Shown here in pieces: positions 2,494-19,695 of a DNA stretch of 21,418 nucleotides. Each line of letters starts with the position of its first letter. Positions within the stretch are counted from its first letter, which is position 1. The position numbers and the translations under genes were made by a program. Location of the stretch: the IMG/VR virus record IMGVR_UViG_3300046000_012828, positions 1 to 21,418 of that record. One strand, 5' to 3'. Below the pieces are notes generated by a model. The model did no database searches. It worked only from the letters and a program-made list of their open reading frames with translations, and was not told where the DNA came from. Source of the stretch: a virus.

Positions 2494-3204
2494 TTAGTAT
2501 GTCTTACAATCGAATTTACTCCACGGTATTTCTTTTGCGTATTTAATTGGGTCTATAGTTTTATTATCTATGAATGCTTTAATACGAGCTGCACAAGATA
2601 CACACTCTCCGCATGCTACTTCTTTACCTTCATAGCAAGTATGCGTTTGTAAAAAATTTATGTTCAGATCAATGCCTTCTTTAACAACTCGGTCCTTGGA
2701 CCATGTCATGAACGGAGCATTTACTTTAATTGTATTCTTGCGGTTAAGATTGTATACATCATTAACTTTGTTTAAAAATAGGGAAGTACAATCCCAGTAC
2801 CCGGAAAAATCATCAGTTTGTACTGCTCCGTAAAACAAATCATTAGCACCGATACTTTCAGCCCACCCAGCTGCAGTTGTTAAAAGTAATAGATTTCTAA
2901 ATGGTACGTAACTAAGCGGCTGTGCGTTTCCTATATCTTCTCTTGCTTTAGGTATCTTAAGATCAGTATTAGTAAGAGCGGACATCTTAGAAATATCTCT
3001 AAAGAAATCCATATTTATAATTTTATGTTCGACAACACCTACATCTAGAGCTTGAGCCTTTGCACAATCAACTTCTCGAATAATCCGTTGACCGTAGTTA
3101 AAAGTTATTGCATACAATTCATCATAGTGCATACGCTTTGCAACATGATGTAGGAGAATAGAACTATCCATACCACCCGAAAGAATAACTAGTGCTTTAG
3201 ACAT
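2494..3204 (-). CDS. queC: 7-cyano-7-deazaguanine (preQ0) synthase QueC
   Basis: QueC uses ATP and ammonia to convert 7-carboxy-7-deazaguanine to preQ0. The 236-residue protein has the PP-loop SGGMDSS (9-15), YVPFRN (99-104), a GAVQTDDFSGYWDC stretch (126-139) matching the QueC substrate region, and four zinc cysteines (190, 198, 201, 204) in the form TCYEGKEVACGECVSC. Length and motif order are those of intact QueC. It heads a minus-strand run with the amidotransferase directly after it. The start ATG is preceded on the minus strand by TTATAAACAT, which contains a weak late-box-like sequence one base before the ATG. Tail end: an FDCKTY C-terminus, no extra domain. High confidence. Confidence 0.95.
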   Translation of the reverse strand: MSKALVILSGGMDSSILLHHVAKRMHYDELYAITFNYGQRIIREVDCAKAQALDVGVVEHKIINMDFFRDISKMSALTNTDLKIPKAREDIGNAQPLSYVPFRNLLLLTTAAGWAESIGANDLFYGAVQTDDFSGYWDCTSLFLNKVNDVYNLNRKNTIKVNAPFMTWSKDRVVKEGIDLNINFLQTHTCYEGKEVACGECVSCAARIKAFIDNKTIDPIKYAKEIPWSKFDCKTY

Positions 3205-5638: not shown

Positions 5639-5652
5639 AGGTAAGTAACTAT

Positions 5653-5680
5653 AGTATATGGCCTACCCTAAAAATAACAA
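5653..5680 (-). promoter_or_regulatory. Possible sigma70-like promoter for primase
   Basis: On the minus strand TTGTTA (5675-5680) is followed after 16 bases by TATACT (5653-5658). Start would fall near 5646, about eight bases before the primase GTG. The elements lie inside the first codons of the divergent gp4 gene. The -10 hexamer and spacing equal those in front of uvsY. Confidence 0.35.
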
Positions 5681-7823: not shown

Positions 7824-8627
7824 TTATACCTTTAGAGCTTTATCCCAAATTTGCAAATGCATACGATTACTAAACTTAAACCCGTATTTCTTACAGATTT
7901 CAGCTACTGCAGGCGCGACTTCAATAAGTTCCTTACGAGAGCCACACATAGGCATAATCCATACAAGATCATTACGCAAACCTACATCAGGGTTATTAAT
8001 ATATTTTTCAAGTACTTCATTAAGATCGGATTCTTGTTTTGCAACGAACTTAAAACAAGCATCATTTTCTACCAAGAAACGAAGCACCTCTGGCTTGAAC
8101 CGCTTTTCTTCAGGGTCTCCATTGCTAGAAAGCTTAGGAGAGGTGGTAAACGTTACAGTACATCCTAATTCAAGCCACTCTCGATCAGGCATAATGGTAC
8201 CGTTCGTTTCAAAGTCGATATGAAGCAGCGGCTCCCGTGGTCCTGAAATCATGGGATCGTACTCGCAGTCCCAGCTAAAAAAGCCCCAACGGTCTCTAAT
8301 AAACTTTACAAATTCAATAAGGTTTTTTTGCTGAATAAAGGGCTCTCCACCAGTAAGCTTTAAAATAGCTCCTTGTTTAAGCATTTCATGATAATCGTTC
8401 TTCTCAAAAAGAAGAGCAGTATCTTCAAATGTCATTTTATTCTTTTTAGACCAACTTACATAACTATCACAACCAAACGGTGCATCTTCACTCTTAAACC
8501 CAATACAAGTGAGGTTGCACATAGATAGTCTCATAAACACAGAAGGATAACCGATGTATCGGCCTTCCCCCTCGAGAGTATAAAAGACAAAATCGTCAGA
8601 AAGAAAAAGAGTTTTATCAGCGCTCAT
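7824..8627 (-). CDS. queE: 7-carboxy-7-deazaguanine synthase QueE (radical SAM)
   Basis: QueE converts 6-carboxy-tetrahydropterin to 7-carboxy-7-deazaguanine using S-adenosylmethionine and a 4Fe-4S cluster. The 267-residue protein shows the family order: TLEGEG (17-22), RLSMCNLTC (33-41), LTGGEP (90-95, the SAM-binding GGE motif), FETNGT (138-143) and SPKL (162-165). The cluster loop is unusual: cysteines 37 and 41 are followed by 11 residues before the third cysteine at 53, instead of the common CX3CX2C. A CDS sequence follows as in the usual C-D-T. The ATG lies two bases after the queD stop. The family call is secure; that Cys53 is the third ligand is inference. Confidence 0.93.
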   Translation of the reverse strand: MSADKTLFLSDDFVFYTLEGEGRYIGYPSVFMRLSMCNLTCIGFKSEDAPFGCDSYVSWSKKNKMTFEDTALLFEKNDYHEMLKQGAILKLTGGEPFIQQKNLIEFVKFIRDRWGFFSWDCEYDPMISGPREPLLHIDFETNGTIMPDREWLELGCTVTFTTSPKLSSNGDPEEKRFKPEVLRFLVENDACFKFVAKQESDLNEVLEKYINNPDVGLRNDLVWIMPMCGSRKELIEVAPAVAEICKKYGFKFSNRMHLQIWDKALKV

Positions 8628-8629
8628 AG

Positions 8630-9082
8630 TTAGATATTAAAGTACTTTTGATAAATTGCACTGTTTTGTTCGTGCTCCCAAACTTCTACTTTTTCACACC
8701 AGCAACGATTATCAGTCATATTTCTGACATAAGAATCAGCAAGATCGCAGCAAAGCTCAGCAAACTTCTCTATGCCTACCCCGCCATGAAGCACAACTAG
8801 TTCAATCATTCCCTTACTCTCAAGTAAGTAAAAAGTTTCAAGATCAGGATCTTTACCCCATACTACGGTTTTATGATCAAATGTATTTTCAAGATCTCTC
8901 TTTAGTTCCTTTAGACCACCAAAATCAACTACCCAGTTGTTTTGATCAAGTTCATTACATGCAAACCAAAATTTAGCTTGTAGTCTGTACCCGTGAATAA
9001 ATTTGCAATGGCTCTTAGCGTGCGGCTGACGAAATGCACATGAACCAAGCGGTATTACTTTAGTAGAATAAAATTTGCCCAT
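8630..9082 (-). CDS. queD: 6-carboxy-tetrahydropterin synthase QueD
   Basis: QueD makes 6-carboxy-5,6,7,8-tetrahydropterin from dihydroneopterin triphosphate, the step after FolE. The 150-residue protein has HAKSHCKFIHGYRLQAKF (21-38), with the likely nucleophile Cys26 and zinc histidines among 21, 25 and 30. VVDFGGLK (51-58), the Asp69-His70 pair in TFDHKTVV and Glu136 near the end (EVWEHEQNSA) follow. The usual HGH motif is HGY here, a variant I recall from a subgroup of bacterial QueD-like proteins with FRQ...SHC...HGY signatures. It heads the QueD-QueE run. A poor -35/-10 pair (TTGAAA, 16 bases, TACCAT) precedes the ATG on the minus strand. FolE is not seen in this window. Confidence 0.9.
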   Translation of the reverse strand: MGKFYSTKVIPLGSCAFRQPHAKSHCKFIHGYRLQAKFWFACNELDQNNWVVDFGGLKELKRDLENTFDHKTVVWGKDPDLETFYLLESKGMIELVVLHGGVGIEKFAELCCDLADSYVRNMTDNRCWCEKVEVWEHEQNSAIYQKYFNI

Positions 9083-9119: not shown

Positions 9120-9473
9120 CTATTTTAAGCTATCTAAATGTTTTTCTATCCATATTTCAAGACTACGCTCTTCAATGTCTCCCGGGCTACATAAAAAAGC
9201 ATTACTGTCTTCTGGATTAAAAAAGATGCTTTTTTGTAAAGCTCTTTTTTCCACTATTTCATCAAAACTTAAATAGACTCGTGCGCGTTTATCCTTGATA
9301 ACTGTATTACCTGCAAGTATAGCATACACGCAAGGGATTTGTTTAAATTCATTAACTAAAGAATTATTAGCTAAAAAATCTATAAATTCATCTTTTTTAG
9401 AAGAATCTTTAAAATAAAAAAATAAAGGTATATCATCACTATTATATATTTTATTGCGATATTTTACCTTCAC
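9120..9473 (-). CDS. Hypothetical protein, 117 residues (GTG start)
   Basis: I do not recognise this protein. It starts with GTG (9471-9473), giving residues MKVKYRNKIYNSDDIPLF. It has mixed alpha/beta composition, is rich in Lys, Asp and Glu, and has no membrane segment. It is transcribed divergently from the lysozyme gene. A perfect TATAAATA late box on the minus strand (9481-9488) ends seven bases before the GTG, so late expression is likely. That, rather than homology, suggests a virion, assembly or lysis-related role. The 37-base gap after its stop separates it from queD. Alternative internal starts are possible, but the box favours the GTG. Confidence 0.65.
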   Translation of the reverse strand: MKVKYRNKIYNSDDIPLFFYFKDSSKKDEFIDFLANNSLVNEFKQIPCVYAILAGNTVIKDKRARVYLSFDEIVEKRALQKSIFFNPEDSNAFLCSPGDIEERSLEIWIEKHLDSLK

Positions 9474-9480
9474 TAATAAT

Positions 9481-9488
9481 TATTTATA
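9481..9488 (-). promoter_or_regulatory. T4-type late promoter box TATAAATA (minus strand)
   Basis: The plus-strand bases TATTTATA read as a perfect TATAAATA on the minus strand, seven bases before the GTG start at 9473. It shares its centre with the plus-strand box, so one 12-base palindrome serves both directions. Confidence 0.7.
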
Positions 9489-9492
9489 AATA
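9485..9492 (+). promoter_or_regulatory. T4-type late promoter box TATAAATA (plus strand)
   Basis: A perfect match to the T4 gp55-dependent late box, six bases before the lysozyme ATG at 9499. In T4 transcription begins about six bases after the box, which would put the RNA start at or next to the ATG. The window also encodes a gp55 homologue. Confidence 0.75.
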
Positions 9493-9498
9493 TAACAT

Positions 9499-10134
9499 AT
9501 GAGACCGGGTCAAAGAGGTAAAATAATCTTAAATAATGAAGTGGGACCTATTACTGTAAACCTCCCCCCACCTATGCACACTCAAGTGCAGGTTGCAGAA
9601 CCGCAAAAAACGGCTCAAGGTAATTCTTTTAAAAATTTTTATCAAAGCAATATTAAATCCTTTGCACCCGCGCAGAATAATTCCTTTGTAGCTAAAGCGG
9701 CAGACTTTATAAAGCGAAACGAAGGGGTAAGAAACAGACTATACAAAGATAGCAAAGGCTACTGGACGGTAGGTATTGGTCATTTAGTTACCCCGCAAGA
9801 GTATAATACATTTAAAAATAAAACCTTAACAGACAAGGAAGTATTGGATCTTTTTAATAAAGACTTAAACAAAAAAATACAATTAGCTAAAAGCTATTTC
9901 GGATCAAAATTTGATACTTTTTCAGATGATCTCAAAATTGCTATTATCGATGGCTATTTTAGAGGAGATTTACCAGGTTCTCCTAGAACAAAAGATTTGC
10001 TACGACGTGGTAATTATAGAGGCGCTGCAAAAGAATATCTAAATAATAAAGAATACCAGGCTGCATTAGCATCTGGCTCAGGGGTAGCAAAACGCATGCA
10101 ACGTAATGCTGAAATAATGTCTAGAGAAAAATAA
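9499..10134 (+). CDS. T4-type lysozyme (glycoside hydrolase family 24) with N-terminal extension
   Basis: The C-terminal 145 residues form a T4 lysozyme domain that cleaves the beta-1,4 bond of peptidoglycan. The catalytic triad is visible as Glu75 in IKRNEG, Asp84 in YKDSKG and Thr90 in GYWTVGIGH, followed by LTDKEVLDLFNKDL and RTKDLLRRGNYRGAAKEYL segments with the family spacing. Residues 1-65 are a Pro/Gln/Asn-rich extension absent from T4 gene e product. It has no signal peptide or membrane anchor, so export would need a holin. A tail-associated lysozyme cannot be excluded, because the extension could be a docking segment. It is a plus-strand island driven by a perfect late box. It ends exactly where the convergent gene ends. 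Confidence 0.88.
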   Translation: MRPGQRGKIILNNEVGPITVNLPPPMHTQVQVAEPQKTAQGNSFKNFYQSNIKSFAPAQNNSFVAKAADFIKRNEGVRNRLYKDSKGYWTVGIGHLVTPQEYNTFKNKTLTDKEVLDLFNKDLNKKIQLAKSYFGSKFDTFSDDLKIAIIDGYFRGDLPGSPRTKDLLRRGNYRGAAKEYLNNKEYQAALASGSGVAKRMQRNAEIMSREK

Positions 10135-10524: not shown

Positions 10525-10886
10525 TGTAGGGGTGTACTAGCGCTTAATTTACCTGCATCTTTTATTGCTGTCTGTAAATTTTTAATTCTATCGTTCATCA
10601 TTTTTTGTTGAGCTGGAAAGTTTTTAGCGGCTTTTTGTAATTCAGCAAGTTCAGCTTTAGCTGCATCAGTTTGAGCTTTTTTAGCTTTATCAGCTGCAAG
10701 TTTTTGGGCAGCAATGACTTTAGGGTCTATACCACCAGTGGTTGCTCCTGGTTGCGGTGTTACTGGTAGTGTGCCAGGGTTAGCTCCAGCTGGTGTAGAA
10801 GTAGTTGGCAGCCCGCTCATATTATACTCTTCTAACATCTTAAAGAACTTACTTTTGGCTTTAACTTTTTGATAAATCTTGTCCAT
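10521..10886 (-). CDS. Ala/Lys/Thr/Pro-rich protein with capsid-targeting-like N-terminus
   Basis: No named family. The 121-residue protein has a basic amphipathic N-terminal helix (MDKIYQKVKAKSKFFKMLEE), ending in a Met-Leu-Glu/Leu-Glu-Glu triplet around residues 18-20. A Thr/Pro/Gly linker (about 24-52) follows, then a long Ala/Lys-rich helix with coiled-coil character (about 53-115). The start ATG follows a partial late box (AGTAAATA on the minus strand, 10894-10901) by seven bases. Together with the following gene, which overlaps it by four bases, it looks like a two-gene late unit of scaffold or internal head proteins. That role is inferred from composition and N-terminal pattern. Confidence 0.62.
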   Translation of the reverse strand: MDKIYQKVKAKSKFFKMLEEYNMSGLPTTSTPAGANPGTLPVTPQPGATTGGIDPKVIAAQKLAADKAKKAQTDAAKAELAELQKAAKNFPAQQKMMNDRIKNLQTAIKDAGKLSASTPLQ

Positions 10887-10893
10887 TTATGTA

Positions 10894-10901
10894 TATTTAC
10901 T
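10894..10901 (-). promoter_or_regulatory. Partial late-promoter-like box AGTAAATA
   Basis: On the minus strand this reads AGTAAATA, two mismatches from the T4 late box but keeping the TAAATA core, seven bases before the ATG at 10886. Spacing equals that of the perfect boxes at 9481-9492. Confidence 0.3.
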
Positions 10902-11547: not shown

Positions 11548-12085
11548 CACTATACAGTCTATAATTGTCCTGGTTAAGAGCAACTATAGATTCTTTATTT
11601 GTCTCAAAAAAACCTTCCATTTTGACAATAACATAACACCCGCACGCAGGGCTGTCCTTTTTAGTGACCCAATAGTTTAAATAACTACCTTCAATTATTA
11701 ACCGATCTTTAATAGCGGAGGGGAATACTACAAACCCGCCTTTGCGGTTAATTTTAAATAGAACAAAGGGAATTTTACCGACCACAGATGCTTGTTCAAT
11801 CCAGCCATCAAGCTGTTGGTTATTAATTAACAGACTTTCAAAATTAAAATCTTTATAAAATTTACCCTCCAGTGTAATATGAGATAGAAATCTAGGTAAA
11901 ATTATATCTCCGGATGCAAGTAATAATTGTTCCGGGGTCAAGCTAGAAATACGGTTAGCATTAAAACCGCCTACAAATGCTCCGCTGTTAGGAACTCTTT
12001 GAAAATTTACTCCGTATATTGCAGTGAGATGTTTCGCAATTTCCCGTTCCCAGCTCTTACCTTTGTTCTTACTTGCATTGGCCAT
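11507..12085 (-). CDS. PD-(D/E)XK nuclease, Holliday-junction-resolvase-like
   Basis: The first half of this 192-residue protein has the restriction-like nuclease core of archaeal/phage Hjc-type resolvases. NKGKSWEREIAKHL (7-20) carries Glu13, and QRVPNSGAFVGG (29-40) follows. SGDII (58-62) carries Asp60, and LEGKFY (72-77) supplies Glu73-x-Lys75. A LDGWIEQA segment (about 93) continues the fold. It probably cuts branched DNA made during phage recombination or packaging, replacing T4 endonuclease VII, or it degrades host DNA. The C-terminal part (about 110-192) has no motif I know. It lies 13 bases after the small gene starting at 12350 and overlaps the next gene. The fold call is good; the substrate is inferred. 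Confidence 0.75.
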   Translation of the reverse strand: MANASKNKGKSWEREIAKHLTAIYGVNFQRVPNSGAFVGGFNANRISSLTPEQLLLASGDIILPRFLSHITLEGKFYKDFNFESLLINNQQLDGWIEQASVVGKIPFVLFKINRKGGFVVFPSAIKDRLIIEGSYLNYWVTKKDSPACGCYVIVKMEGFFETNKESIVALNQDNYRLYSDAFLQNSSQSTNN

Positions 12086-12098
12086 TTCTGGCTACTTA

Positions 12099-12350
12099 TT
12101 ACATCCCGGGAAAACTTCTACGTAACACTTTGCCTTTTTTAAATCCCGGCGGTTTGAATTTGGTTTTTTTAGACTTAGTGCCAAATATATTCCGGGCATC
12201 CCCAGGCGCGTAAAAATCTCCGCTTTTTCCTACTTGAGCAGGATGGGATTGACCTGGCCCGAAGGCTGTAGTTGTTGTGTTAGCAGCTGCTCCTGCATCT
12301 ACCCCTACATCTTCTAAAATCTGTTTTATTTTTTCGTCAAATTGCTTCAT
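12099..12350 (-). CDS. Small basic protein with capsid-targeting-like N-terminus
   Basis: No named family. This 83-residue protein starts MKQFDEKIKQILEDVGVDA, the same M-x-x-F amphipathic pattern as other internal-protein-like genes here, with Ile-Leu-Glu at 11-13. A small-residue linker (Gly/Ala/Thr, 20-45) follows, then a strongly basic C-terminus (about 58-80, with KSKKTKFKPPGFKKGK). After removal of the N-terminus the rest would be a small basic protein suited to binding DNA in the head. It is divergent from uvsY with 36 bases between the two starts, and it precedes the nuclease gene by 13 bases. Role is inference. Confidence 0.6.
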   Translation of the reverse strand: MKQFDEKIKQILEDVGVDAGAAANTTTTAFGPGQSHPAQVGKSGDFYAPGDARNIFGTKSKKTKFKPPGFKKGKVLRRSFPGM

Positions 12351-12788: not shown

Positions 12789-14251
12789 TGAGAGTAGAGT
12801 TTAATTACGATTCTAAAAGAAAAGAAATTAAAATTGTTTCTGATTTTTTCAGTAACATTAAAGAACATTTCTCTGTACGTAATAAAGCTGCTCATTTTAA
12901 TAAATTCGGCAGATTCATGCCGCAAAGAATATATGCAATTACTCCAGCTGGCTATTGCGGGGTAGGTTTACTTCCGGAAATAGTAAAATATCTAAAAACT
13001 CTAGATATACCTTTTGAAATAGTTTTTAACGGAGAACTTATAAAATTATATGCAGACGTGCATATAGCAACACCAGGCTCTAGTGTAAGAAAATTAGATT
13101 GTAATTTTGAATTACGAGACTATCAAGCTGAAGCTATAGGTCGGGTACTTGAAAGGGGTTATGGTATAATTGAAGTAGCAACTGGAGGCGGTAAGACTTT
13201 TATTATATCAAACTTAGTATACGGTGCATTACAATATATAGAGTATACACAAAAAGTGTTAATAGTTGTACCGGATATAGGGTTAGTTGAACAGACATAT
13301 AAAGATTTTACTTCATATAATTTCCCTATGAAGTTAGTTACTAAGTGGACCGGTAATAACGAACTTGATCCTAATTGTAGAGTTATTATTGCTAATATGG
13401 GTATACTTCAGTCTGAAAAATCAGACTTATCCTGGTTTACTGAAGTAGGTCTTTTGATTGTAGATGAATGCCATAAGCTACGGCGTGGTAATAAAATTTG
13501 TAAATTACTTGATAAGATTCCTACTTTACGACGTGTAGGGTTTACCGGTACTTTACCAGAGGATGATATAGATAAATGGAATATATTTAATTATATAGGG
13601 CCTGTTATATACAAAAAAACCACAACAGAATTAAGAGAAATTGCGGGGGATAAATATATTGCAAATGCACAAGCACTTTCATTACTTTTACAGTATGACA
13701 AGATACCAGATTATACTTCGGTATCATCGATGCAAAAATACCGTCTTGAATTAGATTTTATTCATAGTAATGAATACAGAAATAAAGTTATAAAAAATGT
13801 TGTAAAAAAATTACAAAATAATTGTCTTATTCTAGTAGATCATATCGACCATGGACAGACTTTATATAATAATTTAATTACTATTGAGAATAAACAAGTA
13901 TTTTTTATACAAGGTAGTGTAGAGATAGAAGATAGACTTAAAATACAGCAGATGATGGAAGCACATAATAACGTAGTGTGTGTCGCAATAAGTAAAATTT
14001 TCTCTACCGGTATTTCAATTAAAAATATACATTATATTATGTTTGCAGCTGGTGGTAAATCAAAAATTAAAACTCTACAGTCAATAGGCCGCGGCCTTCG
14101 CACTCACGAAAATAAAACAATATTAACTCTAATAGATATAGTAGACGATTTAGTTTACGGAAAAGCACATTATAATAAACGTAAAGAATTTTATGCCCTT
14201 GAAAAAATTAAAATTACCGAAAAAAACATTACCGAAAGCAGCTCCGATTGA
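12788..14251 (+). CDS. uvsW: DNA helicase UvsW (SF2)
   Basis: UvsW is an ATP-dependent helicase that unwinds R-loops and branched DNA and switches T4 from origin-dependent to recombination-dependent replication. The 487-residue protein has an N-terminal region (1-105) like the T4 UvsW DNA-binding domain. The motor follows: LRDYQ (109-113), Walker A ATGGGKT (131-137), Walker B DECH (226-229), TGTLPE (253-258), and motif VI QSIGRGLR (about 431-438). Length is close to T4 UvsW. The last 58 bases overlap the start of the gp55 gene in another frame, so the Lys-rich C-terminal tail (about 468-487) is the part that differs most from expectation. High confidence. Confidence 0.93.
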   Translation: MRVEFNYDSKRKEIKIVSDFFSNIKEHFSVRNKAAHFNKFGRFMPQRIYAITPAGYCGVGLLPEIVKYLKTLDIPFEIVFNGELIKLYADVHIATPGSSVRKLDCNFELRDYQAEAIGRVLERGYGIIEVATGGGKTFIISNLVYGALQYIEYTQKVLIVVPDIGLVEQTYKDFTSYNFPMKLVTKWTGNNELDPNCRVIIANMGILQSEKSDLSWFTEVGLLIVDECHKLRRGNKICKLLDKIPTLRRVGFTGTLPEDDIDKWNIFNYIGPVIYKKTTTELREIAGDKYIANAQALSLLLQYDKIPDYTSVSSMQKYRLELDFIHSNEYRNKVIKNVVKKLQNNCLILVDHIDHGQTLYNNLITIENKQVFFIQGSVEIEDRLKIQQMMEAHNNVVCVAISKIFSTGISIKNIHYIMFAAGGKSKIKTLQSIGRGLRTHENKTILTLIDIVDDLVYGKAHYNKRKEFYALEKIKITEKNITESSSD

Positions 14252-14711
14252 AAAAGCAGCTGCTCCTAAAAAAGAAAAAAAATTAAGCGCGTCCGCGCAA
14301 GCTAAAAAAATTTATTATGTAAACCCCAAAGAGTTTACAGATGAACTTAAAATGTATTATGAAACTAATGTTATTACCGATAAACTCGCATTAATGATAA
14401 AAAACATTGCATACGGTCTAGCTCACGCCCCTAATTTTATTAATTACACGTTTAAAGAAGAAGCAATTGGGGATTCTTTAATCAATATGTTTAATGCCAT
14501 AAAAGACAAGAAATACAAATTTGATCGTGGCTTTAACCCGTTTTCATATTTTAATTCTATTGCGTTTAATTGCTGGAGATCTCGTATTAAGAAAGAAAAA
14601 AGAATGCGAGATACTTTAGCAGCTTACCAAGAAGAGGTTTACAGTATAATCGGTCCTCAAGTAGGGGTCGATGATCCTGTAAATCCGATGCACAAAAATA
14701 ATGACATTTAA
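14193..14711 (+). CDS. 55: Late sigma factor, T4 gp55-like
   Basis: gp55 replaces sigma70 on host RNA polymerase and recognises the TATAAATA late box. Residues from about 40 match T4 gp55: YYVNPKEFTDEL (41-52), IAYGLAHAPNFINYTF (71-86), KEEAIGDSLINMFNAI (88-103), then FNPFSYFNSIAFNCWRSRIKKEK, the region-2-like helices. Two points stand out. The first 40 residues are a Lys/Pro/Ala-rich extension not present in T4, partly encoded inside uvsW (58-base overlap); translation may really begin later, but no nearby in-frame ATG is available before the core. The C-terminus (DDPVNPMHKNNDI) lacks the LDFLYE-type clamp-binding motif of T4 gp55. The perfect late boxes in this window support the assignment. 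Confidence 0.82.
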   Translation: MPLKKLKLPKKTLPKAAPIEKAAAPKKEKKLSASAQAKKIYYVNPKEFTDELKMYYETNVITDKLALMIKNIAYGLAHAPNFINYTFKEEAIGDSLINMFNAIKDKKYKFDRGFNPFSYFNSIAFNCWRSRIKKEKRMRDTLAAYQEEVYSIIGPQVGVDDPVNPMHKNNDI

Positions 14712-15759
14712 AATCCATAACTCTGAAGTTGGTATTTTTTCAGACCCGCATTACGGAGTACACCGTAATAGTGAGACCTGGCATAAAATTGCTTTGGATC
14801 ATGCAAAATGGGCCTGCGAACAATTCAAACAAAGAGGCATAAAAGATATAATAATACCAGGAGATATATTTCATGATCGCAACGACATTGCTGTTAACAC
14901 TCTTCATATTGCTACTGACATATTCGATATACTTCGCGACTTCAATATCATTATTACAGTCGGTAATCACGACGCTTATTACCGTGACAATTCTACTGTT
15001 AATTCCGTCTCCATTCTTAGAGGCTGGTCTAATATTACTGTTATTGACACTCTTCAAGTTGTTAACCTCCAAGGTAAGACCATAACGTTTTGCCCTTGGG
15101 GGCAGGATATAAGTCAAGTACCTAAGTGTGATTTAATTGTGGGTCATTTTGAAATTAACAGTTTTAAAATGAACTCTTTTAAAGTATGTACTAATGGTCT
15201 CAAATCAGCTGATCTTACTAGTAGAGCACCACTTACTATTTCAGGCCATTTTCATCATAGAGAGGAAAGAAAGTATAACGAAGGTACGATCCTGTACGTA
15301 GGGTGCCCATATCAACAAGATTGGGGAGATTATAATACTACTAAAGGTCTTTATATATTAGATCTAGACACTCTTTCATACGAATTTATCGAAAACAATA
15401 TTTCTCCGCGTTACAATAAAATTTATTATTCAGATATTTTTAGCGGTAACCATACAGCTACTGTTATTAAGCAGTTAATTGCAGGTAATATAGTAAAGTT
15501 TATTATAGATAAGCAATTGGAGCCGAGCATGGTAGATGCTATTGTGCGTAAATTAGTATCTGTAAAGCCAGTGGAATTAACAATAGATTATGATTACACC
15601 GAAATTAATAAAGTTAACAACGAACTTGCTAATACGAAAAATTTCAGTGTAAGTGTTGAAACTTCTATATCTGAGTTTATTGATTTATTAGAGATTAAAG
15701 ATAAAGATAAAGTAAAGGAATATGTTACAGACTTGTATCATAGAGCATTAAAAACATGA
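14701..15759 (+). CDS. 47: Recombination nuclease subunit gp47 (SbcD/Mre11 family)
   Basis: gp47 with gp46 resects DNA ends for recombination-dependent replication. The 352-residue protein has the Mre11 metallophosphatase motifs: SDPHYGVH (14-21, Asp15 and His17 binding metal), PGDIFHDR (53-60), GNHDAYY (88-94), LIVGHFE (about 145-151) and SGHFHHRE (about 181-188). A C-terminal helical and strand region (about 235-352) corresponds to the capping and gp46-contact part. The ATG overlaps the gp55 stop region by 11 bases. In T4-like phages gp46 normally follows close by; here a glycosyltransferase gene starts within the last four bases, so gp46 must lie elsewhere, probably beyond the cassette. 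Confidence 0.93.
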   Translation: MTFKIHNSEVGIFSDPHYGVHRNSETWHKIALDHAKWACEQFKQRGIKDIIIPGDIFHDRNDIAVNTLHIATDIFDILRDFNIIITVGNHDAYYRDNSTVNSVSILRGWSNITVIDTLQVVNLQGKTITFCPWGQDISQVPKCDLIVGHFEINSFKMNSFKVCTNGLKSADLTSRAPLTISGHFHHREERKYNEGTILYVGCPYQQDWGDYNTTKGLYILDLDTLSYEFIENNISPRYNKIYYSDIFSGNHTATVIKQLIAGNIVKFIIDKQLEPSMVDAIVRKLVSVKPVELTIDYDYTEINKVNNELANTKNFSVSVETSISEFIDLLEIKDKDKVKEYVTDLYHRALKT

Positions 15760-16553
15760 AAATCGGAGCAGCAATCATAGCTTGTGACAGAACTAACTTT
15801 ACTGAACAATGTATCGATAGTGTACTTGCTAACAAACAAGATTTGAACGAACTAATAGTTATTAATGACGGTATACCGTGGCATTGCAATAAAAACATTG
15901 AAATATTGCAGAATACTCCTTCATATCAAACAGTAGGGGTTGCTAAAAATAAAGGTATAAAGGAACTTATAAAAAGAAATTGCGATCATATCTTTCTTAT
16001 AGAAAACGATATGATCATTAAATCTCCGTCAATATTTAACAAATATATAGAAGCGGCTAAAGTTACAGGTATTACCCATTTAAATTTTGGTTATCATGGA
16101 CCTGCAAACAGAACTAAAGACTACGCTAAGCCTAATCCGCGCTATATAGTAGAATACCCTAATAATATAAAGATTGCATTAAATATGCACTCCGTCGGAG
16201 CTTTTTCATATTTTGATAAGCGTTATATTAATGAAGTTGGTGTCCATGACATTTATTTTAAAAATGCGTGGGAGCATGTAGAACTTTGTCAACGAGGTAT
16301 TAAAAAAGGTCTATTACCTGCTTTTTGGTGGTTTCCTGATATTGAAGGTAGTAATGAACTAATAGAAGAAATACCTAATTCTATACAAAATAGTTCTATT
16401 ACTCACACTGAAGAGTGGACTACTAATATGAAAAAAGGTGCTGAGCACTATAAAAAATTGCATGGTTGGATACCCGTTCATACACCAGATACTCAAGTTG
16501 AAGTGGTATTAAAAAATCTTAAAACAATTTATAAAAAATACAAATGTACGTAA
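15756..16553 (+). CDS. Glycosyltransferase, family 2-like (GT-A fold)
   Basis: The 265-residue protein begins with a GT-A nucleotide-binding fold: MKIGAAIIACDRTNF (1-15), a CIDSVL helix (19-24), LIVINDG (33-39) and a later IENDM (82-86) at the position of the DXD metal motif, with Asn-Asp instead of Asp-x-Asp. A long C-terminal half contains FKNAWEHVELCQRG (typical of the acceptor-site acidic/His segment in GT2 enzymes) and a Trp-rich FWWFPD. No membrane segment. It overlaps gp47 by four bases and the GT11 gene by ten, and is the first gene of the glycan cassette. Donor and acceptor cannot be read from the sequence. Confidence 0.8.
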   Translation: MKIGAAIIACDRTNFTEQCIDSVLANKQDLNELIVINDGIPWHCNKNIEILQNTPSYQTVGVAKNKGIKELIKRNCDHIFLIENDMIIKSPSIFNKYIEAAKVTGITHLNFGYHGPANRTKDYAKPNPRYIVEYPNNIKIALNMHSVGAFSYFDKRYINEVGVHDIYFKNAWEHVELCQRGIKKGLLPAFWWFPDIEGSNELIEEIPNSIQNSSITHTEEWTTNMKKGAEHYKKLHGWIPVHTPDTQVEVVLKNLKTIYKKYKCT

Positions 16554-17350
16554 CACATCCAGGAGTAACTCAGTCGGGAGAATATGGTCTAGGCAATCAA
16601 ATGTTTCAGATTGCTAGTACTATAGGTATTGCTCGAACCAATGGTGGTTTACCGATATTTTTACATGATTGGAACAATAACAAGTATTTTAAAAATAAAC
16701 TCAATAAACTCTTAACAGAACCCAAAGAACCGTTCCATGTAACTGAAGCTAGTTTTGATTATACCCCGATAGTTTTACCAAAAGATAAAGCAGTAGTCTA
16801 CTTGAGTGGCTACTTACAGAGTGATAAATATTTTGCTGGTTCTGAACAGGAAGTTAGAGATACCTTTGAATTTAAAGAAAGTAATTTAAAAGAAGTAACA
16901 GATATAAAAAACAGTTTAAATTTAGGCGTTACTTGCTCAATAAGTGTTCGTCGCGGGGATTACGTTCATCTGCAACATATTCATCCCTTACAGCCAGATA
17001 GATACTGGCTTGATGCGCAGAATACAATAGAAAGTAAAACTAAAATAGATACCTATATTGTTTTTTCAGATGATATTAATTGGTGCAGAACAAATCAGCA
17101 CTTGTTTAAGCGTACCGGCAAAAAAGTCTTTTTTATGGAAGGCCGTACTCAAATAGATGACTTTATGATGATAACGCTTTGTGATCATAATATTATTACT
17201 AATTCAACGTTTGCGTGGTGGGGGGCGTATCTTAATAAAAACTTAAACAAAATAGTAGTTATGCCCTCGCTATGGTTCGGGCCGCAAGGTCCATGGTCAG
17301 GGCCATCTGATGCAAATGATCTATATGTGAAAGGATGGTATAGAGTATGA
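16544..17350 (+). CDS. GT11 family glycosyltransferase (alpha-1,2-fucosyltransferase type)
   Basis: The 268-residue protein has the GT11 signatures. GLGNQMFQ (15-22) is near the N-terminus, and ISVRRGDYV (133-141) corresponds to the family's H-x-R-R-G-D-Y donor-binding motif, with Ser in place of His. VFSDDINWCR and the C-terminal TNSTFAWWGAYLN block follow. GT11 enzymes transfer L-fucose from GDP-fucose, usually alpha-1,2 to galactose. Length is that of bacterial members. It sits between a GT2-like gene (10-base overlap) and a GT10 gene (4-base overlap), so two fucosyltransferase types are encoded together. The family call is strong; the exact linkage is not provable from sequence. Confidence 0.92.
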   Translation: MYVTHPGVTQSGEYGLGNQMFQIASTIGIARTNGGLPIFLHDWNNNKYFKNKLNKLLTEPKEPFHVTEASFDYTPIVLPKDKAVVYLSGYLQSDKYFAGSEQEVRDTFEFKESNLKEVTDIKNSLNLGVTCSISVRRGDYVHLQHIHPLQPDRYWLDAQNTIESKTKIDTYIVFSDDINWCRTNQHLFKRTGKKVFFMEGRTQIDDFMMITLCDHNIITNSTFAWWGAYLNKNLNKIVVMPSLWFGPQGPWSGPSDANDLYVKGWYRV

Positions 17351-18183
17351 TTAAAATACCTCTAAGAGATAAACATTTTAGTCACTGTATATACAGTAAT
17401 AACCCTCTACCGCCCACTTCGTTTTCAAAATATATAGAGTGGAAAAGAATAGAGGCTCATGAGGGAGATGAAAATACAGTCTATACAGATAGTTGTTTAG
17501 AAGAATGCAAAGGCGGAATAGGGTGGATATTGGAACCTTATGAACTTGATAGTAAACCTTATAATTATGTAATTAACAACAGAGACAAATTTAAAGAAAT
17601 ATGGAGTCACGATAGGGAATTTATTAATAAAGTAAACGGCACTTATGTACCGTATGGTGGTTGTTGGATCAACAGAGCAGATTTTGCTATACATCCAAAA
17701 ACTAAAAATTTTTCTATTATAGCTTCGGGTAAACGGTTAACTACAGGTCATTATATTAGACATAATATTGTGGCAGCAGCAGGTTCAAATATAGATGTTT
17801 ATGGCCGCAGTTTTTTAAATACCCCGGGATATAATGAAATTAAAAACAAAATAGAAGGATTAAAAAATTATAGATTTCATTTTGCAATTGAAAATTGTAA
17901 AAAAGATACATGGTTTACAGAAAAACTTATCGATTGTTTTGTTACAGGTACAGTACCCATATACTGGGGATCTTCAACTATTTCTGAATTTTTTAATACT
18001 GACGGGATAATTATGTTTGACAATCTTTTAGACTTAAAACAAAAATTAAAATTATGCACCCCAGATTATTACGAAAGAAAAATGCCCGCTATAAAAGAAA
18101 ACTTTGAACTTGCAAAAAAATACCTTTTAGCTGAAGACTGGATTTATAATAATATTAAACTAAATCAAAATAATTATGTTTGA
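17347..18183 (+). CDS. GT10 family glycosyltransferase (alpha-1,3/1,4-fucosyltransferase type), copy 1
   Basis: The C-terminal half carries the GT10 donor-site block: IEGLKNYRFHFAIENC (169-184), then WFTEKLIDCFVTGTVPIYWG (189-208). That is the pattern of the GDP-fucose-binding motif of alpha-1,3-fucosyltransferases. The N-terminal half (NNPLPPTSFSKYIEW, VPYGGCWI, SIIASGKR) forms the acceptor-binding part. At 278 residues it is a compact enzyme without membrane anchor. It ends in LAEDWIYNN and overlaps the next gene by eight bases. The following gene is a clear paralogue, about half identical by eye and colinear throughout, so the pair arose by tandem duplication. Probable substrate GDP-fucose or a related GDP-sugar. 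Confidence 0.88.
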   Translation: MIKIPLRDKHFSHCIYSNNPLPPTSFSKYIEWKRIEAHEGDENTVYTDSCLEECKGGIGWILEPYELDSKPYNYVINNRDKFKEIWSHDREFINKVNGTYVPYGGCWINRADFAIHPKTKNFSIIASGKRLTTGHYIRHNIVAAAGSNIDVYGRSFLNTPGYNEIKNKIEGLKNYRFHFAIENCKKDTWFTEKLIDCFVTGTVPIYWGSSTISEFFNTDGIIMFDNLLDLKQKLKLCTPDYYERKMPAIKENFELAKKYLLAEDWIYNNIKLNQNNYV

Positions 18184-19021
18184 CGACTTAAAAGACAAAA
18201 AAATAAATTTATCTATTCAAGATAGTTCGTTTCAGCACTGCGAATTTAGTAATAATCCCTTACCACCTACTTCGTTTTCAAAACATATAAACTGGGATAG
18301 ATGTACAGTTGATAAAAATACAATTTATACAGATAATCATATTCATTCAGCACCTGCTGAATCTAATATTTGGTTGCTTGAACCCGTAGGGGTAATTCCG
18401 AATATATATAATTATGTTCTAGAAAACAAAGAACGTTTTAAGAGAATATGGACTCATGAAAAAAATATTTTTGAAAAATTTAATAATGCGCAATTTGTAC
18501 CGGTGGGCGGATGCTGGATAAGTAGTAGTGATAGAATCATACATAATAAATTTAAAAACATATCTATTATAGCTTCAGATAAAAAAAATTTAGAAGGCCA
18601 TAAATTAAGACATAATGTTATTTCCGTCTTTAAAAACAGTATTGATGCTTACGGTAATGAATATACTCCTTTTAAACAGTTTTACTGTAATAAAATTGAA
18701 GGTTTAAAAGATTATAGATTTCATATAGCTATAGAAAACTGTAAAAGAGACTATTATTTTAGCGAAAAACTAATTGATTGTTTTGCTACCGGTACAATAC
18801 CGATATATTGGGGATGTCCTTCTATAGGTCAATTTTTTAATATTGATGGAATGATTCTATTTAACTCTATAGAAGAACTTAAAGAAAAACTTGAGTTATG
18901 CACACCCGAATACTATGAAAGTAAAAAAGAAGCAATTCTTAATAATTTTGAATTAGCTAAGCAATACTACTTAGCAGAAGACTGGATTTATACAAATTTA
19001 TTACAAAGTATTACAACATGA
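18176..19021 (+). CDS. GT10 family glycosyltransferase, copy 2
   Basis: This 281-residue protein is a paralogue of the gene before it. It shares NNPLPPTSFSKHINW near the start, VGGCWIS, SIIASDKK, and IEGLKDYRFHIAIENC with FSEKLIDCFATGTIPIYWG. It also shares the tail LCTPEYYESKKEAI and LAEDWIYTN. The donor block is intact, so it should be active. The differences from copy 1 lie mainly in the N-terminal acceptor half, which suggests a different acceptor sugar for the same GDP-sugar donor; this is inference. Its start overlaps copy 1 by eight bases and its stop overlaps the FkbM gene by four. A few divergent positions (Cys for Ser after YWG) are not in catalytic residues I know. Confidence 0.88.
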   Translation: MFDDLKDKKINLSIQDSSFQHCEFSNNPLPPTSFSKHINWDRCTVDKNTIYTDNHIHSAPAESNIWLLEPVGVIPNIYNYVLENKERFKRIWTHEKNIFEKFNNAQFVPVGGCWISSSDRIIHNKFKNISIIASDKKNLEGHKLRHNVISVFKNSIDAYGNEYTPFKQFYCNKIEGLKDYRFHIAIENCKRDYYFSEKLIDCFATGTIPIYWGCPSIGQFFNIDGMILFNSIEELKEKLELCTPEYYESKKEAILNNFELAKQYYLAEDWIYTNLLQSITT

Positions 19022-19695
19022 AACAAATTTTATATAAATATGATGGTAGTATAGTTACACCTTCTGAAGTACCTGAATATTATGGGCAATACGAACTTGA
19101 TAAAATTATTCATGAAGAGTATTTTAAAAACCGCTACAATGGGGTGTTTGTTGATGTAGGAGCGAATGATGGAGTTTCTATAAATAGCACTCTTTTTTTT
19201 GAAAGATACATGAAGTGGAAGGGACTCTGTATTGAGCCTAATCCAGATTCATTTGAGTTTTTAAAACGCAATAGAGACAGCTGTTTGCAAATAGCAGTTT
19301 CAGATAAAGAAGGGATAGCTGAGTTTACTAGTATTAAGGGATACTCAAATTCTTTATCCGGCTTAACTGAAGACTATCATCCGTTACATGTAAGCAGAAT
19401 ACACCAAGAACTACAAATGTACGGAGGGAACAAAAAAGCAATACCTGTGCAGACTAAGCCTCTTAATACAATTTTTGCAGAAAACAACATTACAGAGGTT
19501 AATTTGTTAAAAATAGACACTGAAGGTTCTGAGCTAAAAATTTTAAGCACTTTAAATTTTAATAACGTTAAAGTTGAGCTTGTTGTTATAGAAAATAATT
19601 ACGACTCTGAAGAATATAGAACATTTATGAAAGAAAAAGGTTTCGTTCTAAAAAAGCGGAGCGGTATTGACGAAATTTATCTTAATTCTTATTAA
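19018..19695 (+). CDS. FkbM family methyltransferase
   Basis: The 225-residue protein has the FkbM-type SAM-binding fold. VFVDVGANDG (43-52) is motif I, and LCIEPNPDSFEFLKRN carries the acidic residue that holds the SAM ribose. SLSGL and LLKIDTEGSELKIL (about 164-177) is the characteristic downstream block, followed by VELVVIENNY. FkbM enzymes O-methylate sugars or polyketides, and in glycan clusters they usually methylate a sugar hydroxyl. Placed after two fucosyltransferases, it may methylate the fucose-containing glycan. The first 40 residues (YKYDGSIVTPSEVPEYYGQYELDK) are a small extra segment. The gene overlaps GT10 copy 2 by four bases and is followed by the only gap in the cassette. 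Confidence 0.9.
   Translation: MKQILYKYDGSIVTPSEVPEYYGQYELDKIIHEEYFKNRYNGVFVDVGANDGVSINSTLFFERYMKWKGLCIEPNPDSFEFLKRNRDSCLQIAVSDKEGIAEFTSIKGYSNSLSGLTEDYHPLHVSRIHQELQMYGGNKKAIPVQTKPLNTIFAENNITEVNLLKIDTEGSELKILSTLNFNNVKVELVVIENNYDSEEYRTFMKEKGFVLKKRSGIDEIYLNSY

Follow-up and report, generated by a model that had tools for sequence, protein, structure and literature searches.

The late promoters of phage T4 carry the box TATAAATA at positions −13 to −6, and those of Aeh1 the box CTAAATA (PMC1524935). In T4, the strand on which the sliding clamp is loaded fixes the one orientation in which it activates late promoters (PMC2988020). Bacterial bidirectional promoters, in which a pseudo-symmetrical −10 element is common to both directions and bound one way or the other, have been described by the Grainger group (PMC12825309, PMC10268837). 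In Escherichia coli, spacings of 10, 18 or 23 bp between their two starts are common, double occupancy is excluded, and this exclusion alters output only if one direction is strongly activated (PMC12825309). Leaderless mRNAs are relevant as well, as those that begin with GTG are translated poorly in E. coli and efficiently in mycobacteria (PMC4633059).

Here, we describe a site in a 21,418-bp linear virus record of an uncultured T4-like virus of bacteria (the window, i.e. the whole stretch of DNA analysed), with genes for UvsY, gp47, gp4 and gp55, a T4-type late sigma factor. Judging from sequence, we consider it likely (probability roughly 0.78) that a 12-bp palindrome between a lysozyme gene and the divergent gene of a 117-aa protein represents two T4-type late −10 boxes sharing four bases, as a product of compaction and not a special switch. 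With T4 late promoters, the site and its clade have in common the box itself, an encoded gp55 and a position before virion genes. They differ in the clade consensus (NTAARTA, with G often replacing A), in the distance to the start codon (4–8 nt, against mostly 12–50 in T4), in lacking a Shine–Dalgarno site, and in that the sliding clamp gp45 was not detected in the clade relatives searched. Bacterial bidirectional promoters resemble the site in their shared −10 element and alternative binding, and the 23-bp start spacing predicted for the window by the T4 rule is one of their stated common classes. Unlike them, the site is predicted to be read by a phage late sigma factor instead of sigma70, it serves two protein-coding genes across a 25-bp gap with predicted near-leaderless RNAs, and its boxes are mostly separated in relatives. 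The predicted starts lie within ~3 nt of ATG or GTG and no Shine–Dalgarno site is present, as in mycobacterial leaderless mRNAs (PMC4633059); here, however, the transcripts would be late mRNAs of a T4-like phage, predicted solely from box position. Taken alone, the palindrome amounts to the phage counterpart of a known type of promoter, for which exclusion is already known from the bacterial examples.

The palindrome and its setting

The palindrome TATTTATAAATA is its own reverse complement and occurs once in the window. It contains TATAAATA on both strands, with positions 9485–9488 common to both copies, and lies in a divergent gap of 25 bases (9474–9498). The GTG of the minus-strand gene ends 7 bases from the palindrome, and the lysozyme ATG starts 6 bases from it. 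All of this geometry had been given in the original prediction, and the sequence and coordinates agree exactly. The features discussed below are as follows:

9481–9492, both strands: palindrome TATTTATAAATA, read as two overlapping divergent late-promoter −10 boxes from its sequence and from 24/24 relatives
9485–9492, plus: putative late −10 box TATAAATA of the lysozyme gene; start predicted from T4 spacing at ~9498, 1 base before ATG
9481–9488, minus: putative late −10 box TATAAATA of the 117-aa gene; predicted start ~9475, 2 bases before GTG
9499–10134, plus: lysozyme/endolysin gene, 211 aa (PF00959, 3e-8; phrog_7 endolysin, 7e-16)
9120–9473, minus: 117-aa gene beginning with GTG and conserved as neighbour of the lysozyme gene; N-terminus MKVKYRNK kept in close relatives
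14193–14711, plus: gp55-type late sigma factor, the expected reader of the boxes (phrog_234, 1.3e-16; phrog_12791, 5.6e-8)
1813–1819, minus: CTAAATA, a further late box 5 nt upstream of ATG at 1807
10894–10900, minus: GTAAATA, a further late box 7 nt upstream of ATG at 10886 of a gene with a weak head-scaffold match
12093–12099, minus: ATAAGTA, a further late box 7 nt upstream of ATG at 12085 of a RusA-like resolvase gene
5641–5647, plus: GTAAGTA, probably also a late box, 10 nt upstream of the gene for a gp4-like head-closure protein at 5658

Neither the lysozyme gene nor the 117-aa gene is preceded by a Shine–Dalgarno site. For the 117-aa protein, family and profile searches gave no family match and no match was found among isolated phages; close relatives share the sequence MKVKYRNK at its very start, and its predicted structure (pLDDT 36) was not used. 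Within the AT-rich window, TATAAATA alone is not enriched (6 found versus 6.2 expected), and the four copies outside the palindrome lie inside genes, while the 12-mer TATTTATAAATA is expected 0.07 times by chance. The decisive evidence against chance is the conservation of the boxes in relatives, which weighs more than any count in the window.

Elsewhere in the window, genes resembling QueC (by appearance only), QueE and QueD lie at 2494–3204, 7824–8627 and 8630–9082, and GTP cyclohydrolase genes are present in a 119.8-kb relative, G001; the Que-like genes may belong to a pathway for queuosine or for preQ0/7-deazaguanine DNA modification. Downstream of gp47 (15756–19695) follows a run of genes that look like glycosyltransferases and methyltransferases, in which the adjacent, similar genes at 17347–18183 and 18176–19021 have the appearance of a tandem duplication. 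As a guide to the host, the thymidylate synthase ThyX was ambiguous, as its best hits are mostly Flavobacteria-type MAG contigs, but include Proteobacteria too. The Bacteroidota −7 motif TAnnTTTG, considered as an early promoter and host clue, shows no enrichment and was discarded.

Late boxes adjoining start codons in the clade

The 7-mers over-represented before genes, sought with no prior motif, are TAAGTAT (21 versus 1.4 expected), GTAAGTA, ATAAGTA, TAAATAT, GTAAATA and similar words, i.e. NTAARTA. In five clade contigs, 98 such boxes lie 4–8 nt before start codons (assigned simply as the first in-frame ATG), where ~3.4 are expected. Shine–Dalgarno-like sites are depleted in the same contigs, with 31/526 genes compared with 75/526 for a control stretch inside genes. 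Applied to T4, the same code recovers the known T4 box and finds none at 4–8 nt and 17 at 9–53 nt, with a Shine–Dalgarno site in 14/15 boxed genes; cyanophage S-SSM7 also has no boxes at 4–8 nt. In T4 and a cyanophage, boxes are mostly found 12–50 bases upstream of start codons. If T4 spacing applies, boxes at 4–8 nt imply leaders of 0–3 nt for most boxed genes, so that late mRNAs of the clade are probably leaderless or near-leaderless, beginning at about the first codon.

In G001, boxed genes encode the portal, prohead protease, tail tube, sheath stabiliser, head closure, baseplate wedge and hub, and decoration-like proteins, with a non-virion or metabolic minority (RNR small subunit, PhoH, thymidylate kinase and an epimerase). 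Genes without a box in a partly hand-chosen, descriptive sample include those of DNA polymerase, helicase, UvsX, ssDNA-binding protein and the RNR large subunit. Some virion genes, for a baseplate wedge protein and two tail fibre proteins, likewise lack one; the tail sheath gene in this sample has a box farther upstream, at 15 nt. The sigma factor gp55 is encoded in 7/7 relatives searched, among them G001, G008, G011 and G013, and G001 has T4-type replication genes. For gp45, PF09116 matched T4 and the cultured Pelagibacter phage HTVC008M and gave no match in G001, G008, G011 or G013, some of which may be incomplete. PF02916 matched nowhere, and no gp45 was found among ten G001 candidates. In these four, the clamp may have diverged or been replaced, or its gene may lie outside the contigs where these are partial.

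T4-style late promoters had been sought in pelagimyophages before, without success (PMC7029224). In HTVC008M (loci L056–L061), box distances are bimodal: ten genes have a box at exactly 5 nt, mostly without a Shine–Dalgarno site, and a second class has boxes 16–31 nt away, mostly with one. Distance and Shine–Dalgarno absence are partly linked in this phage, because a box at 5 nt occupies the Shine–Dalgarno position. Its spacer between the DNA-end-protector gene (gp2) and the head-completion gene (gp4; L056 18917–18942) resembles that of the window, with a 26-bp divergent gap and a late box 5 nt from each ATG. It differs in that the boxes do not overlap (2 bp apart) and in that other late genes of HTVC008M have a leader with a Shine–Dalgarno site.

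Given that the box is locked to start codons at the Shine–Dalgarno position in a clade that lacks Shine–Dalgarno sites, it might instead be a translation-initiation element, acting through its AT-richness or through weak pairing of TAAG with 16S rRNA. We regard this as quite unlikely. Tightly packed co-directional genes have a box at 4–8 nt less often (21/224, 9%) than others do (75/282, 27%; p=7e-7), as expected of a promoter and not of a translation signal, since such genes need translation too. Moreover, A and G alternate at a position required for pairing, the box is absent from the hand-chosen replication genes, and it is the same motif as in the late promoters of T4 and Aeh1 (PMC1524935), in phages that encode gp55. 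We therefore rejected a translational role on depletion and motif evidence, and retain the late-promoter reading.

Conservation of the divergent spacer

Searches with both proteins and their alignments recovered the 117-aa protein at 46 loci and the lysozyme at 32. These loci collapse to 24 distinct spacers with gaps of 25–40 bp, and in each of them the 117-aa gene points away from a gene of lysozyme type. NTAARTA boxes are present on both strands in 24/24 of these spacers, 4–12 nt (usually 5–8) from the start codons; only 0.5% of shuffled spacers show this arrangement, although the 24 relatives are not mutually independent. Together with the encoded gp55 and the identity of the box with the enriched upstream motif of the clade, this bears out the prediction of two divergent late promoters. 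The same prediction left unremarked that their predicted starts fall at the start codons.

The palindrome itself fares differently. It is perfect only in the window and L068/L069, while L063 and its identical copies carry TACTTATAAATA, an imperfect palindrome, and in L070 the two boxes, both CTAAATA, are separated by 5 bp. Outside the subclade with overlap, boxes are 1–7 bp apart. Across the relatives, box sequences drift to TAAGTA, CTAAATA or GTAAATA. A tree of both proteins places the overlapping forms in one monophyletic group (support 0.94), nested in lineages with separated boxes. Loss of the palindrome in close relatives had been named as an outcome that would count against the prediction: L063 and L070 have lost it, and both kept the two promoter boxes. 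The sequences indicate that the promoters are conserved, and that the perfect palindrome or four-base overlap is a derived state limited to the nearest subclade of the window, which does not support the palindrome as the key feature.

Start codons are unequal at this symmetrical promoter (9471–9501 in the window): the 117-aa gene has GTG in 22/24 variants and the lysozyme gene ATG in 23/24, and in L077 the two are swapped. A second palindromic divergent spacer, AGTAAATATTTACT, occurs in G001 (L049 17568–17587), where late boxes cross in a 20-bp gap between genes for 349-aa and 249-aa proteins.

These relatives also bear on whether only the promoter toward the lysozyme is real, with the minus-strand match a by-product of the symmetry of an AT-rich box. 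The chance-level frequency of TATAAATA in the window fits this, as does the inherent near-symmetry of −10 boxes (PMC12825309); yet boxes do not overlap in 21/24 variants, and these still keep a separate minus-strand box 4–12 nt from the 117-aa start, which makes a one-sided promoter very unlikely.

Palindromes between divergent genes are often operators, so the dyad could bind a repressor or other dimeric protein controlling both genes, but we rejected this as exceedingly improbable, as the spacing of the dyad varies freely (overlap 2 to gap 7, counting 7-base boxes), its arms differ in sequence between relatives, with each arm keeping to its own start codon, and single copies of the box precede many genes.

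Direction of transcription and implications

Our model of two overlapping late promoters starts from what is read directly: the boxes, their both-strand conservation in the 24 spacer variants, gp55, and the lock between box and start codon. Host RNA polymerase bearing gp55 would bind the palindrome in one orientation or the other and, depending on that orientation, transcribe either the lysozyme or the 117-aa gene. Two polymerases would not be bound at once. With starts predicted 23 bp apart and 1 and 2 bases before the start codons, both RNAs would be near-leaderless and translated without a Shine–Dalgarno site. T4 spacing may not hold in this virus, and the prevalence of GTG in the 117-aa gene, combined with the poor translation of leaderless GTG in E. 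coli, counts against the near-leaderless reading. The boxes before some non-virion genes, the negative searches for gp45 in relatives and the simple assignment of start codons also weigh against the model. Ancestrally, the boxes were probably several bp apart in a gap of ~30 bp or more, and shortening to 25 bp in the subclade of the window would have fused them into the palindrome.

The site was also proposed to make late expression of the two genes mutually exclusive in each event. Simultaneous occupancy is indeed sterically unlikely, but this does not depend on the palindrome and likely applies to all variants. The stronger wording on expression is overdone, because bidirectional promoters in E. 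coli compete only when strongly activated (PMC12825309); by analogy, competition between the two genes at high late-promoter activity is plausible. Replication might even set the direction at the shared promoter, with opposite clamp orientations favouring the lysozyme or the 117-aa gene, as an analogy with T4 would have it. There is little chance that this is so; if true, it would couple fork polarity to lysis-gene choice.

The larger finding, which goes beyond the original prediction, concerns a large uncultured clade of T4-like viruses, in which late promoters and start codons are fused. This fusion is common to the clade and a cultured SAR11 phage, and predicts wholesale leaderless or near-leaderless late mRNAs. 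The motif and its distance rule are usable for annotating late genes, for correcting start codons and for testing whether a change to leaderless translation takes place late in phage infection.
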